Shown here: piece after piece, positions 17,497-50,631 of the stretch
Layout: each line of letters begins with the position of its first letter
Position numbering within the stretch: position 1 is the stretch's first letter
Source: an uncultured Dehalococcoidia bacterium
GTDB taxonomy: Bacteria > Chloroflexota > Dehalococcoidia > Lucifugimonadales > Australimonadaceae
Assembly: GCA_958295525.1 (NCBI GenBank)
Contig: OY282355.1
Location: 2,041,931 to 2,105,930, forward strand
DNA length: 64,000 bases
Direction: 5' to 3'
Notes under the pieces: generated by a model
What the model saw: the letters and a program-made list of their open reading frames with translations, nothing else
Database searches by the model: none
What the model was told of the DNA's origin: nothing
Made by a program: the position numbers and the translations under genes

Positions 17497-18486
17497 CTAC
17501 TTCCTCTCTCCCTCGGGCTGTTCCGTCCGCGCGTCGGCGGCGGCGGATTCCGGCTCTTCGGCGACTGCCTCAGCCTGCTCCGTCTCAGCGTCCGCGTTGT
17601 CGGAACGCTCGGCGGCGGCGGATTCGGATTGCTCTTCGGCGACTGCCTCAGCCTGCTCCGTCTCAGCGTCCGCGTTGTCGGAACGCTCAGCGGCGGCGGA
17701 TTCGGATTGCTCTTCGGCGACTGCCTCAGCCTGCTCCGTCTCAGCGTCCGCGTTGTCGGAACGCTCAGCGGCGGCGGATTCGGATTGCTCCGTCTCAGCG
17801 TCCGCGTTGTCGGAACGTTCATCAGCGGCGGATTCGGATTGCTCTTGTTCCGCGTCGGCGGCGGCCTCTTCAGGCTCGCCTTGAGCGGGCTCTTGCTCTG
17901 CGGCGGTCTGGGGCCCTTCCGCAGCGAGGGTTTGCTCTTCGGCGGTTTCGGTTTCGGCTTCCGGCGCATCCGACGGCGGCGCTTCGGGTTCCGTAGAGGC
18001 GGGGCGGCGCCTTCGGGAGGGGGCGGGGGCGGCGGGCGCTTGCTTCGGTTTGCCCATTCCGATGCGAACCTGCGCCTCGTGGGGGTGCGCGGCGTCCGCG
18101 TAGACCTTGAGGCGGCGCAGCATTCTGCGACCGAGCCGGTTGCGCGGGAGCATACCTTTGACGGCGAGTTCGACGACGCGAGCGGGGAAGCGGGCGAGCA
18201 TCTCTTCGAGCGTTCGCGTCCGCATTCCGCCGGGGTAGCCGGAGTGGCGGTGATAGACCTTCTGCGCCATCTTGGCGCCGGAGACGCCGATCTTCGCGGC
18301 GTTCACCACGATGACGAAGTCCTCGGACAACTGGTGGCGGCTGTAGTCCGGGCGGTGCTTGCCTTGCAGCAGTCCCGCGACTTTCGTGGCGAGGCGTCCG
18401 AGGCGTTCGCCTTCGGCGTCCACGACGTGCCACTTTTCGCGGCGCGCCGAGGGGTTTGTGTGTTTTGTGATGCGCTGCAGTTCCAT
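17497..18486 (-). CDS. rplM: 50S ribosomal protein L13 with a ~184-residue acidic repetitive C-terminal tail
   Basis: Residues ~1-146 are a normal L13 ([47 protein letters not shown]), an early 50S assembly protein. The reading frame then continues for about 184 residues of Glu/Ala/Ser/Thr/Gln-rich sequence, beginning with a basic patch (SRRRRP) and then three to four tandem copies of a 26-residue unit containing [17 protein letters not shown]. At DNA level the unit is 78 bases and nearly identical between copies (17581, 17659, 17737). No stop or frame break separates core and tail, and rpsI follows immediately, so the tail appears translated. It is predicted to be disordered and strongly negative overall. 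L13 is normally about 145 residues. Confidence 0.95.
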
Positions 18487-29525: not shown

Positions 29526-29893
29526 TACAGCACCTCCGGGGCTAGGGAGACGATCCGCATAAAGTTGCGCTCGCGCAACTCGCGGGCCACCGGGCCGAAG
29601 ATCCGCGTTCCGCGCGGCGTCTCCGCTTGCGTCAGGATAACCGCCGCGTTGTCGTCAAAGCGAATGGTGGAGCCGTCGGGCCGCTTGGTGACCGCGCTCG
29701 TCCGAACGACCACGGCGCGGACAATTTCGCCCTTCTTCACCGCGCTGTTGGGCTGCGCGTGCTTCACCGACGCGACGATCACATCGCCCACCCGGGCGTA
29801 GCGCCTGCGCGTCCCGCCCGGGATGTTGAAGCACATAATCTCTTTGGCGCCGGAGTTGTCGGCCACGTTGAGGCGCGTCTGCGGCTGAATCAC
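29525..29893 (-). CDS. rplN: 50S ribosomal protein L14
   Basis: 122 residues. [20 protein letters not shown] start, [20 protein letters not shown] and [10 protein letters not shown] are diagnostic; L14 contributes to inter-subunit bridges. Begins with GTG overlapping the S17 stop (GTGA), so its translation is coupled to ribosomes that have read the whole acidic S17 tail. Confidence 0.98.
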
Positions 29894-30882
29894 GACGTCT
29901 TCTCCGCGCTTTGCGACTCCGCGCCGGCCCCCGGCTCCGCAGCCGTTCCGCCGTCGGCGGCTTCTTCCGCCGGCTCCGCAGCCGCGAGGTCAGTCTCCGC
30001 GTCGGTCTCTTCCGCAACGGGCTCCGCCGCGGCTTCCGGCTCATCCGCCTCTTCCTGCGCGACGGGCTCCTCGGCGGCGGATTCGGCCTCGCCAGCCGCG
30101 TCATCCGCAACGGCCTCAGCCTCCTCGGCTACGGATTCTTCTTGCGCGACGGGCTCCTCGGCGGCGGATTCGGCCTCGCCAGCCGCGTCATCCGCAACGG
30201 CCTCAGCCTCCTCGGCTACGGACTCTTCTTGCGCGACGGACTCCTCGGCGGCGGGCTCGGCTTCGCCAGCCGCATTACCCGCGTCGGCCTCAGCCTCAGG
30301 CGCCTCGGCGGCGGCTTCCGGTTCGCCGCCTGCGTCATCGCCAGGAGATTCCACCGCTAGCGCTTCCTCGTCCGCGGATTCTTCCGCAACGGCCTCTTCC
30401 GGCGCGGCTTCCTCGGCAGCGGGCTCTTCTTCCTGCGTCTCCGGTTCGTCAGCCGTTTCCCCGGCGGCGGGCGCAATCTCCTCGACGGCGTCCGTCTCCC
30501 CGCCGGTTTGCGGCTCGCCGGCGCCGACGGCGACCGCCGCCGCGACCACGGCCTCGACCGCAGGCTCGGGTTCCGGCGCGGGTTCGGGTTCCGGCTCGAC
30601 CACCGCCAGCGCCGCCACGACCTCTTCGCGCTGGAGGAGTTCGGCGACGCGCCAGCGTTTCGTGCGCGAGAGCGGGCGCGTTTCGATCAGCCGCACCACG
30701 TCGCCCACTTGGTAGGCGTTGCCCTCGTCGTGCGCCTTGAACTTTTTCACGCGGCGCACGGACTTGTGGTAGAGCGGATGGGGAACGCGGCGCTCTATGG
30801 CGACCACGACGGTTTTGTCCATCGCGTCGCTCACCACGCGCCCGACGCGGCTTTTGCGGCGGGCTTCAAGGTCGGTTGTCAT
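29890..30882 (-). CDS. rpsQ: 30S ribosomal protein S17 with a ~240-residue acidic repetitive tail
   Basis: Residues ~8-88 are S17 ([54 protein letters not shown]), a primary 16S-binding protein of the body. From ~90 to 330 the frame runs on into Glu/Ala/Val/Asp-rich sequence with one lysine near its end and no arginine. It includes a [11 protein letters not shown] stretch and three tandem copies of a 29-residue unit (87 bases; period seen at 30061, 30148 and 30235). Normal S17 is about 85 residues, so this protein is nearly four times the usual length. No frame break separates the parts, and rplN starts within its stop codon. Confidence 0.95.
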
Positions 30883-46398: not shown

Positions 46399-46503
46399 AT
46401 GCCGTCGCCGTTGGAAAAACGCTTCCTCGCTGCGATGCGGGGCATAGGGCGCTTCTTTCCAAACATCAGCCGCCGCATCAAGTTGCGGCATCACAGCCCA
46501 TGA
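46399..46503 (+). CDS. 34-residue ORF translationally coupled to the methyltransferase
   Basis: Short frame MPSPLEKRFLAAMRGIGRFF then NISRRIKLRHHSP, strongly basic. GGGAGGA directly precedes its ATG, and its TGA overlaps the methyltransferase ATG (ATGA). It could be a leader peptide coupling translation, or the remnant of a larger partner. Not recognised; coding status rests on the ribosome-binding site and the overlap. Confidence 0.5.
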   Translation: MPSPLEKRFLAAMRGIGRFFPNISRRIKLRHHSP

Positions 46504-48026
46504 CGGCGCAGGCCGCATCCGTCCGCAAGCGGCACGGGGTGGTGTACACGCCGGAGTGGGTCGCGTCGCTGATCTTGGACAACGCGCTGCCAGCGGATCC
46601 GGGCGCACTAGCGGCGGCGGCTATTTGCGATCCGGCGTGCGGCGACGGGGCGTTTCTCGTTCCCGCGGCGGAGCGGCTGCTCGCGTCGCTGGAGCGGGAC
46701 GAGGCGCTGGGCGCGCTGCGGCGAATGGCGGGCTACGACATTGACGGCGAGGCGGTCGCGCGCTGCCGGGCGCGGTTGGACGCGGCGCTGGAGGCGCGGC
46801 ATCCGGGCGAGCGGGTCGAGTGGAACGTGAAGCGGCGCGACGCCTTCGACCGCGCGGCGTTCCGGGGCGACCGCGGACGGTTCACGCACGTGGTCGGCAA
46901 TCCGCCGTACATCCGGGTGCAGCATCTGGAGGCGGCGCGCCGGAGGCGCCTCGCGGGGCAATGGGAGACGCTGCGCGGCGCGACGGACTCGTATCTGATC
47001 TTCTACGAGTTGGGGCTCGACCTGCTCGCCGAGGGCGGGACGCTCGCGTACATCACGCCGTCCAGTTGGCTGCGCTCCGATTCGGGGTCGCGGCTCCGCA
47101 ATCTGCTCGCGGCGTCGCACGAAGTCGCGCGGATTCTGGATTTCTCGGCGCATCAGGTGTTCGCGGACGTCACGACCTACACGGCGATAGCGGTGATTCG
47201 GAAGGGCGGGCGGGCGCAGGCGATCCCTGTCGAGAAGTACGACGGGGGCGCGTTCCGCAAGGCAGGGCGCATCGCGGTCGACCCGGCGCGTCCGTCGGCG
47301 CCGTGGGCCGCGGCGCTGCCGTCCGACCGGGCGCGCTTGCGGAAATTGGCCAAGCGCGGGCCGAAGTTGGGGGAAGTCGCGGCGATTCACGTCGGGATTC
47401 AGACGCTCGCCGACGGCGTTTTCATTCTGCGGCTGGCGGATGAGGAGACCGACGGGGCGTCGGCGGACGCCGACTACGCGCTCTGCCGCGCGAACGGGGA
47501 GACGCTGCGCTTGGAGCGCCGGATGCTGCGGCCTATCGTCAAGGCGTCGGTGATGAAGAACGGGCGCGACCCTGCGCGTCGCGTCGTGATCTTCCCTTAC
47601 GACGAATCGGGCGCGCCGCTGCCGGAGGAGCGCGTGCGGGAAGAGGCGCCGCGGGTCTACGCATGGCTGCTGCGGAACAAGGCGCGGCTGCTTTCGCGCG
47701 ACAAGGGGAACGCGGATCCGCGGCGGTGGCACGCCTTCGGCAGGCGCGTCTCCATCACGTCGGGGTTCGGCGACAAGATACTGACAGCGGGAATGAACCT
47801 CCGCCCGGACTTCCAGCGCTGCCCTGACCCTGCGGCGACGTTCTACTCGGGATACTGCGTGAAGCCGTTCCCCAACGTGGACGGAGAGCGGCTGCTGGAG
47901 GCGTTGAACTCGCCGGAGATAGAGTTCTTCATCGGCCAGACGAGTCGCCCCTACCAGGGCAATTGGATGTCTTACGCTAAGTCGTTCATTAAGGATTTTC
48001 CCGTGCCGCAGCGCGCGCTCCGGTAA
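46500..48026 (+). CDS. Eco57I/TaqI-like N6-adenine DNA methyltransferase
   Basis: 508 residues. Gamma-type amino-methyltransferase order: motif X VVYTPEWVA (~14-22), SAM-binding motif I DPACGDGAF (44-52), catalytic NPPYIRVQ with NPPY at 134-137, then a C-terminal target-recognition region (~290-500) like the TaqI specificity domain, ending NWMSYAKSFIKDFPVP. No restriction nuclease is fused or adjacent, and it is too short for a type IIG enzyme with its own nuclease domain. It may be an orphan methyltransferase used in regulation or self-protection, or part of a split system elsewhere. Confidence 0.9.
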   Translation: MTAQAASVRKRHGVVYTPEWVASLILDNALPADPGALAAAAICDPACGDGAFLVPAAERLLASLERDEALGALRRMAGYDIDGEAVARCRARLDAALEARHPGERVEWNVKRRDAFDRAAFRGDRGRFTHVVGNPPYIRVQHLEAARRRRLAGQWETLRGATDSYLIFYELGLDLLAEGGTLAYITPSSWLRSDSGSRLRNLLAASHEVARILDFSAHQVFADVTTYTAIAVIRKGGRAQAIPVEKYDGGAFRKAGRIAVDPARPSAPWAAALPSDRARLRKLAKRGPKLGEVAAIHVGIQTLADGVFILRLADEETDGASADADYALCRANGETLRLERRMLRPIVKASVMKNGRDPARRVVIFPYDESGAPLPEERVREEAPRVYAWLLRNKARLLSRDKGNADPRRWHAFGRRVSITSGFGDKILTAGMNLRPDFQRCPDPAATFYSGYCVKPFPNVDGERLLEALNSPEIEFFIGQTSRPYQGNWMSYAKSFIKDFPVPQRALR

Positions 48027-48069: not shown

Positions 48070-48117
48070 ACGCTGCGCGCCGCACCTTACAGGTGCGGCG
48101 CGCAGCGTCGGATTTTT
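48070..48117 (+). terminator. intrinsic terminator after the methyltransferase gene
   Basis: 17-bp perfect stem (48070-48086 with 48092-48108), TTACA loop, followed by CGGATTTTT. A TTGACA at 48065-48070 runs into its left arm, so a promoter for the next gene may overlap it. Confidence 0.8.
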
Positions 48118-48225
48118 CGTGAAATTCACCCCCTCACGAATGCTGCGCCCGCCGCCGCGCCTTCCGCGCGCGGATTTCGACGGAACGCTCGGCGCATGCC
48201 TCGACCCCAGGAGGAACCGAACGTT

Positions 48226-49920
48226 ATGCTGACCAGAATGCTCGCAGTCTTCGCCGTGGCGCTGGCCGTCATCGGCCTCGCCGCCGCCGCCCCAATGATC
48301 GCCCTCGCGCAGTCCAGCGGCGACGCGACCGCAACCGCCACGGCAACCCCCACCCCGGCGGCGACGCCGTCGCCCGGGCCCACGTCCTTCGCGCTCAAGC
48401 CGCACACCAGCGCACTGAAGCCCCGAGGCCTCACACGCATCGGCGACAAGTGGCACGTCGCCGGCTTCAACGCCGGCTACATCCACATCTTCAACGACAA
48501 CGGAACCTACGCGCGCCGCATCAAAGCCCCACCCGTGAGCATTCGCGGCCTCACCACCGACGGAACTAACCTCATCGCCGTCTCAGGCGGCGTCCCCAGC
48601 GTCTACACATGGCCGCCCCAAGCAAACGACGCAACCGTCCCAACGCCTGCCTCCCGAGCGCTGCATTCGCCGCCTGGCGGCGGGACATACCTCGCACAAG
48701 GCATCGCGCACGACGGCGCGAACACCTGGGTCGCCGTCCAGTGGCCGCGCGGGGGCAGCGCCTCCTCCAAAAAATACGGCTTGCTCAAAATCAACGCCAC
48801 ACAAACCATCCTCCACCGCACAAACAAGCCCGTCTCCGGACTAACCTACCAGAACAACTACTTATACGGACTCCTCGGCGTGGACATCCCAAACAGCAGC
48901 AGCAGCGAAAACCCAGACCTCGCCCGCATCAGCACAACCGCCACCGCCTTGCAACCCTACACGGCAGCCGCCTTGGTGCACGACACCATAGAGCCCCCCA
49001 TGAACAACTGGGAGGTCACAAGACGAACTGTCGGAATCCGAGGCGGCCTCGACTTCCGCAACAGCACAGCCTACGGATTCAATAACGCCTACGACGAAGT
49101 CCGCCAAGCAAGGCAGCCTTCCCCCGAGCGGCTGTTTAGCCTCACGCCCCACATCAGCACGCTCAACCCCCGAGGCCTCACACGCATCGGCGACAAGTGG
49201 CACGTCGCCGGCTTCAACGCCGGCTACATCCACATCTTCAACGACAACGGAACCTACGCGCGCCGCATCAAAGCCCCACCCGTGAGCATTCGCGGCCTCA
49301 CCACCGACGGAACTAACCTCATCGCCGTCTCAGGCGGCGTCCCCAGCGTCTACACATGGCCGCCCCAAGCAAACGACGCAACCGTCCCAACGCCTGCCTC
49401 CCGAGCGCTGCATTCGCCGCCTGGCGGCGGGACATACCTCGCACAAGGCATCGCGCACGACGGCGCGAACACCTGGGTCGCCGTCCAGTGGCCGCGCGGG
49501 GGCAGCGCCTCCTCCAAAAAATACGGCTTGCTCAAAATCAACGCCACACAAACCATCCTCCACCGCACAAACAAGCCCGTCTCCGGACTAACCTACCAGA
49601 ACAACTACTTATACGGACTCCTCGGCGTGGACATCCCAAACAGCAGCAGCAGCGAAAACCCAGACCTCGCCCGCATCAGCACAACCGCCACCGCCTTGCA
49701 ACCCTACACGGCAGCCGCCTTGGTGCACGACACCATAGAGCCCCCCATGAACAACTGGGAGGTCACAAGACGAACTGTCGGAATCCGAGGCGGCCTCGAC
49801 TTCCGCAACAGCACAGCCTACGGATTCAATAACGCCTACGACGAAGTCCGCCAAGCAAGGGCGGCCGCGACAACCACCGCCGCGCCCGCCGCCGCTACGA
49901 CCACCGCCTCTTCGAACTAA
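48226..49920 (+). CDS. secreted beta-propeller-like protein with two identical 231-residue units
   Basis: 564 residues. Sec signal peptide (MLTRMLAVFAVALAVIGLAA then AAPMIALAQS), then a Thr/Ala/Pro linker (SSGDATATATATPTPAATPS) of a kind often glycosylated or wall-spanning. Next come two copies of a ~231-residue unit that are identical in protein and, as far as compared, in DNA, then a Thr/Ala-rich end (AAATTTAAPAAATTTASSN). Each unit repeats a pattern GL/GIxxxGxxxxVA (GLTRIGDKWHVAG, GLTTDGTNLIAVS, GIAHDGANTWVAV, GLTYQNNYLYGL) that looks like successive beta-propeller blades. No anchor or enzyme motif was found. A/C-rich codon choice differs from its neighbours, hinting at transfer. The ATG follows AGGAGG by 11 bases. 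Confidence 0.82.
   Translation: MLTRMLAVFAVALAVIGLAAAAPMIALAQSSGDATATATATPTPAATPSPGPTSFALKPHTSALKPRGLTRIGDKWHVAGFNAGYIHIFNDNGTYARRIKAPPVSIRGLTTDGTNLIAVSGGVPSVYTWPPQANDATVPTPASRALHSPPGGGTYLAQGIAHDGANTWVAVQWPRGGSASSKKYGLLKINATQTILHRTNKPVSGLTYQNNYLYGLLGVDIPNSSSSENPDLARISTTATALQPYTAAALVHDTIEPPMNNWEVTRRTVGIRGGLDFRNSTAYGFNNAYDEVRQARQPSPERLFSLTPHISTLNPRGLTRIGDKWHVAGFNAGYIHIFNDNGTYARRIKAPPVSIRGLTTDGTNLIAVSGGVPSVYTWPPQANDATVPTPASRALHSPPGGGTYLAQGIAHDGANTWVAVQWPRGGSASSKKYGLLKINATQTILHRTNKPVSGLTYQNNYLYGLLGVDIPNSSSSENPDLARISTTATALQPYTAAALVHDTIEPPMNNWEVTRRTVGIRGGLDFRNSTAYGFNNAYDEVRQARAAATTTAAPAAATTTASSN
48421..49113 (+). repeat. intragenic 693-bp direct repeat, unit 1
   Basis: Starts at CCCCGAGGCCTCACACGC. 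Matches the second unit at a constant offset of 747 bases with no difference found by eye. The flanking coding sequence is homologous but diverged (FALKPHTSALK against FSLTPHISTLN). Confidence 0.9.
49168..49860 (+). repeat. intragenic 693-bp direct repeat, unit 2
   Basis: Second copy, ending at GTCCGCCAAGCAAGG, after which the two sequences diverge. Separated from unit 1 by 54 bases. The sharp ends of identity point to recent duplication or gene conversion. Confidence 0.9.
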
Positions 49921-49929
49921 TCGCTGGAG

Positions 49930-49964
49930 CGCCTGCGCGACCCAATTATTGGGTCGCGCAGGCG
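49930..49964. terminator. terminator hairpin between convergent genes
   Basis: 16-bp perfect stem with a TTA loop, followed on the plus strand by GTTTCCTCT. It begins ten bases after the stop of the secreted protein and could serve the convergent FmdB gene too. Confidence 0.7.
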
Positions 49965-50280: not shown

Positions 50281-50631
50281 TTTCTCCCTCCCGCGCCATA
50301 GAACGCGGCCTGCGGCCTATGGTACACGAAACGAGGGAAGGCATTTTCCGCGAGGCAGGCTCCCGCCTCCGGCGGGAGCGGGCGGCAAGGGCAGCGGGGC
50401 AAACGGCGGCGCTCGGGCGGCGCGGCTCCGGCATCGCGCGGGCAGGATCGGCGAATGAGAGCGCGGACAGGCGGCGATGGGGACGCGGGCAGGATCGGCG
50501 AATGGGGGCGCGGGCAGAGGCGGCGACGGGGACGCAGGCAGAGGCGGCGATGGGGACGCAGGCAGAGGCGGCGAATGAGAGCGCGGACGGGCGGACGGGG
50601 ACGCGGGCAGAGGCGGCGATGGGGACGCGGG
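50281..50631. other. gene-free, low-complexity region
   Basis: About 350 bases very rich in G on the plus strand. The left third has an imperfect palindrome (CTCCCGCCTCCGGCGGGAG, about 50359-50377); the right part is the minisatellite. I see no gene. Confidence 0.6.

Follow-up and report, generated by a model that had tools for sequence, protein, structure and literature searches.

Near-identical repeats have been described in bacterial proteins of more than one kind. In the highly repetitive β-propellers (Front Mol Biosci 2022, PMC9218822), which carry near-identical propeller-type repeats and whose listed phyla include the Chloroflexi, amplification affects the single blades of a ring. The Periscope proteins (PNAS 2021, PMC8201768) are secreted by bacteria, and their domain repeats, very highly identical in DNA, are thought to recombine; they are rods of many copies that carry a ligand domain at the N-terminus, and their length varies among strains. 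In the case of sponge Chloroflexi, eukaryote-like repeat proteins (ankyrin, TPR, LRR) have been reported, and the words NHL, WD40 and beta-propeller are absent from the main text of that study (Bayer et al. 2018, PMC6306507). The gene analyzed here (48226..49920, + strand) lies in a 64-kb stretch of DNA, hereafter the window, which corresponds to positions 2041931-2105930 of a genome consisting of one 2.51-Mb contig with 96.5% completeness; the source organism belongs to the SAR202/Dehalococcoidia lineage and is of the sponge type. Its open frame encodes a secreted protein of 564 aa with twin β-propeller-like units. As in the highly repetitive β-propellers, the propeller-type repeats are near-identical, but the blades are diverged and it is the whole five-blade unit that appears duplicated. 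The very high DNA identity of the repeats is shared with the Periscope proteins, if the repeats fold as domains; neither the surface anchor nor the distal ligand-binding domain of the Periscope type was seen on reading the translation of the twin-unit protein. The recently homogenized repeat is real, and repeats of this kind are already known from bacterial surface proteins.

Self-comparison demonstrated that positions 48421-49113 and 49168-49860 coincide over 693 bp (231 codons), with 0 mismatches at an offset of 747 bp, as the first-pass annotation had stated for two 231-residue units identical in DNA. A chance origin of this identity is excluded, and the 0/693 differences set the divergence of the core at no more than about 0.4% at the 95% level (rule of three). 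The same annotation had described the bordering coding sequence as homologous but diverged, which proved correct only on the 5′ side, where the 36 bp preceding each copy (48385-48420 and 49132-49167) are homologous, with 22/36 bases identical and 14 different, and translate as SFALKPHTSALK in unit 1 and LFSLTPHISTLN in unit 2, with 6/12 residues identical. On the 3′ side, the borders of the two copies are unrelated, reading QPSPER... and AAATTTAAP..., respectively. The description was right in kind, the diverged border being one short segment, probably a closing strand, and not a long flank as implied. A direct-repeat scan of the 64-kb window revealed no second direct repeat of comparable size. 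Shorter repeats occur at other loci of the window: the ribosomal protein S17 and L13 genes (29890-30882 and 17497-18486, both on the − strand) encode long acidic tails rich in Ala and Glu, in which near-identical tandem repeats of 87 and 78 bp keep the reading frame, and short direct repeats, rich in G and ~24 bp long, are found at 50465-50631, between a zinc-ribbon gene and a response regulator. Similar Ala/Glu-rich tails are visible on L3 as well as on further ribosomal proteins of this cluster, and the S17 open frames are also long, with 273-386 aa, in 5/5 congeners.

A perfect identity of 693 bp is also what collapsed reads would yield, and the source genome was probably assembled from a metagenome, so that the true locus could hold one unit, or two similar units equalized by short-read polishing. 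However, between the copies lies a unique, diverged 54-bp linker that keeps the frame and that a copying error would not create, and the frame is intact over both units, with a start, a ribosome-binding site, a stop and a terminator-like hairpin. In addition, since the genome is a single contig of 2.51 Mb and of the completeness given above, gross misassembly is less likely. An assembly or polishing artefact is accordingly regarded as quite unlikely.

The ribosome-binding site AGGAGGAA (48209-48216, + strand) lies nine bases before the ATG at 48226. The translation starts with a signal peptide, MLTRMLAVFAVALAVIGLAAAAPMIALA, followed by Q (48226..48309), which displays a positive N-terminus, a hydrophobic core and an A-x-A site, and continues with a Thr/Ala/Pro-rich linker (48310..48384) and the proposed closing strand of unit 1 (48385..48420). 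The core of unit 1 (48421..49113), with five blade-like motifs, is followed by the inter-unit linker QPSPER and the proposed closing strand of unit 2 (together 49114..49167), the identical core of unit 2 (49168..49860) and the Ala/Thr tail AAATTTAAPAAATTTASSN (49861..49917). Thus, the signal peptide bears out the secretion that had been claimed at first, and both the Thr/Pro linker and the Thr/Ala tail then reported are present. Reading of the translation detected no sorting motif, C-terminal transmembrane segment or extra domain. The product is regarded as a secreted, probably cell-surface or matrix protein of the SAR202 bacterium, with a presumed surface location. A hairpin scan identified two terminator-like structures flanking the gene, a perfect 18-bp hairpin with a T-rich tail upstream (48070..48108) and a perfect 17-bp hairpin directly past the stop codon (49930..49964), which could alternatively be repeated intergenic elements. 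A linker of the same type occurs in another secreted gene of this genome (L002, G000:C1 near 1.997 Mb), in which a long Thr/Pro linker precedes RCC1-like 'HSCGLRPDGS-VCWG' repeats; it represents a second propeller type in the genome and its codon use is normal. The weak DNA matches to the twin-unit gene elsewhere in the genome corresponded to this Thr/Pro linker or to short unrelated stretches (L003, L004) and were discarded.

The genomes searched (six from the genus, 250 from the order and 400 from the phylum) contained no close homologue of the twin-unit protein, nor did IMG/VR, phages or plasmids, and class-level matches appeared only at E 0.003-0.009, approximately the chance expectation for that many genomes. 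A search of the order with a single unit returned two weak matches (L043, E 1e-4; L045, E 1e-3), both in very large open frames that encode giant proteins built of tandem units of ~225-250 aa. Homologues with one or three near-identical units were not found, the distant relatives carrying 4-8 diverged units. Ten of these giants (L128, L129 and L160-L167, from genomes G441, G040, G050, G430, G016, G053, G017, G583, G525 and G039) are secretion-type proteins of 1,200-2,700 aa with 4-8 tandem propeller units and a common N-terminal β-domain bearing a motif like YLLGE/ILGQ-V-F-G. A profile search located the family in 17 other genomes of the 250 in the order and in none of the rest of the source organism's genus. 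It is essentially unannotated in Pfam, one member matching the PQQ β-propeller model at 31.2 bits against a cutoff of 26.7; the giants are called propellers on their motif and on this one match, and the blade profiles used below derive from them. Eight giants (L128, L129 and L160-L165, ~2,100-2,700 aa) resemble the twin-unit protein in the secretion-type N-terminus and possibly in the tandem units and their order of motifs, and in several a segment like the start strand precedes the first unit, as VLFAVPQVVGGT or SLAFPIPLD among L128, L129 and L160. On the other hand, they combine 4-8 diverged units with other N- and C-terminal domains, whereas the twin-unit protein has two identical units, falls far below the size of more than ~1,200 aa, and carries the Thr/Pro linker directly before unit 1 in place of the long N-terminal β-domain; the similarity is distant, about 25-30% over aligned stretches, and the twin-unit protein is at most a candidate member of the family.

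Five blade-like motifs were recognized in each unit, G-L-T-R-I-G-D, G-L-T-T-D-G-T, G-I-A-H-D-G-A, G-L-T-Y-Q-N-N and G-L-D-F-R-N, starting at residues 5, 45, 96, 142 and 211, respectively. The unit length of 249 aa compares with 224-258 in L128 and L129, with G-L/I motifs at matching spacing. As profile A1 contains the twin-unit protein itself, its matches to this protein are circular, and the independent test was a tandem-unit profile built from two giant SAR202 proteins without it. This profile scored 67.7 bits, a value that counts two identical units, and the highest score among 200 shuffles was 6.1; when the profile was widened to 56 units, drawn from ten proteins, the score was 46.1 bits and that of the shuffles 7.2. 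With a profile of the giants' blade 1, one unit reached 22.0 bits at three blade positions, the best of 1000 shuffles being 5.6. Additionally, hhalign returned E 1e-6 with a probability of 91%, the alignment staying in register across unit residues 3-109, while shuffled and reversed controls gave E 0.19 or worse. Both units are in register with the giants over blades 1-2, and blades 3-4 match blades 1-2 of the profile, some matches being shifted by two blades, as propeller repeats would give; profile matches cover mainly blades 1-4, the position of blade 5 coming from alignment alone. Since the profile scores are far above shuffles, homology to propeller blades at the sequence level is taken as shown. 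Each unit probably adopts a five-bladed propeller fold, in line with the four or five blades first supposed. The rival view, a β-rich secreted repeat protein with another fold, draws on the prediction by AlphaFold without homologues, which gave no confident fold (pLDDT 39 for the whole protein and 38 for one unit), and on the fact that no Pfam, NCBIfam, PHROG or PDB family exceeded its threshold. The best curated match, the Vps41 β-propeller of Pfam (E 4.6e-4, 20 bits, cutoff 33), weakly favours propellers. The rival view is at odds with the blade-level scores and with the PQQ match of the giant relative, and we consider it quite unlikely.

In the proposed order, the signal peptide and the Thr/Pro linker lead into two five-bladed β-propeller-like units in tandem, with the Ala/Thr tail at the end. 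A short strand at the start of a unit, strand d of blade 5, would close the ring of that unit, and blades 1-5 would come after it; the diverged 36 bp probably sit at the position expected for this closing ('velcro') strand. The segment ahead of blade 1 has its counterpart in the giants in the final strand of the unit before; because the core ends with blade 5 and unit 2 directly joins the Ala/Thr tail, both units are considered to begin with a closing strand of their own. The arrangement points to two separate rings of five blades each, and one ten-bladed ring may be the alternative to 2 x 5 blades. Closed five-bladed rings with velcro closure and a role in ligand or matrix binding are presumed. 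A secreted or surface twin five-bladed propeller in which intragenic recombination has recently equalized the two units is, in our assessment, the probable reading of the locus.

Regarding its history, an older duplication would have produced the two units, with 14/36 bases of the start strands still different, and the 693-bp core would have been equalized recently by gene conversion, or by unequal crossover and subsequent loss. A core diverging like the 36-bp border would practically never keep 693 identical bases; the older duplication with a homogenized core, anticipated by the first-pass annotation, agrees with this pattern. The same identical core would result from any single recent tandem duplication of a one-unit gene in which the second start was replaced or rewritten and an ancient stage with two units never existed, and the genus holds no relative with two diverged units. 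However, the start strands look like old homologues, which a single recent event would not yield, and the distant relatives are old diverged arrays, making this scenario unlikely. An old two-unit gene with recently equalized cores would be the simplest history. Given that the giants have no exact unit-to-unit DNA repeat longer than 26 bp, the longer repeats of L128 and L165 being short-period and near the C-terminus, and that units within L128 and L129 are 18-53% identical to each other, the recent homogenization is a feature of this gene and not of the family as a whole. Identical units would permit further recombination, as has been suggested for the Periscope proteins (PMC8201768), and a capacity to change unit number is plausible, as is the surface-variation reading of the first-pass annotation.

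The deviating codon use reported at first was confirmed at fourfold-degenerate sites, where the share of A is 0.19 in the twin-unit gene, compared with 0.02-0.07 across 16 further genes in the window. GC is 60-65% compared with ~70% around, with a GC skew of about -0.3 and an AT skew of about +0.35. Such codon use is compatible with a horizontal origin, composition alone being no proof; a phage or plasmid origin was considered and found nothing in its support. The cysK (82-84%) and response-regulator (68-69%) genes are conserved in 5/5 congeners and the genes after them differ. The twin-unit gene is absent near that locus in the five congeners (12-14 kb covered in four, 4 kb in the fifth), which identifies it as an accessory gene. 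An Eco57I-type N6-adenine methylase gene (46500-48026, + strand; Pfam E 4e-24), with no restriction partner seen beside it, adjoins the twin-unit gene and is likewise absent beside cysK in those congeners. The neighbouring response regulator matches at 68-69% the MAGs SAR202 cluster bacterium bin16, Chloroflexi SB0664_bin_11, RHO1_bin_8 and similar ones, which assigns the genome to SAR202/Dehalococcoidia. Several of these MAGs presumably come from sponges. The fullest reading, a lineage-specific and possibly transferred twin-propeller surface protein with active intragenic conversion and variable unit number, facing host or phage in SAR202 symbionts, appears improbable as a whole.

The locus offers a clean case of whole propeller domains recently homogenized, with the border where the ring-closing strand is expected. 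The unannotated giant tandem-propeller family may be a more interesting lead than the twin-unit protein itself. If the unit number varies in nature, the gene would be a locus of surface variation in bacteria that are uncultured and probably associated with sponges.
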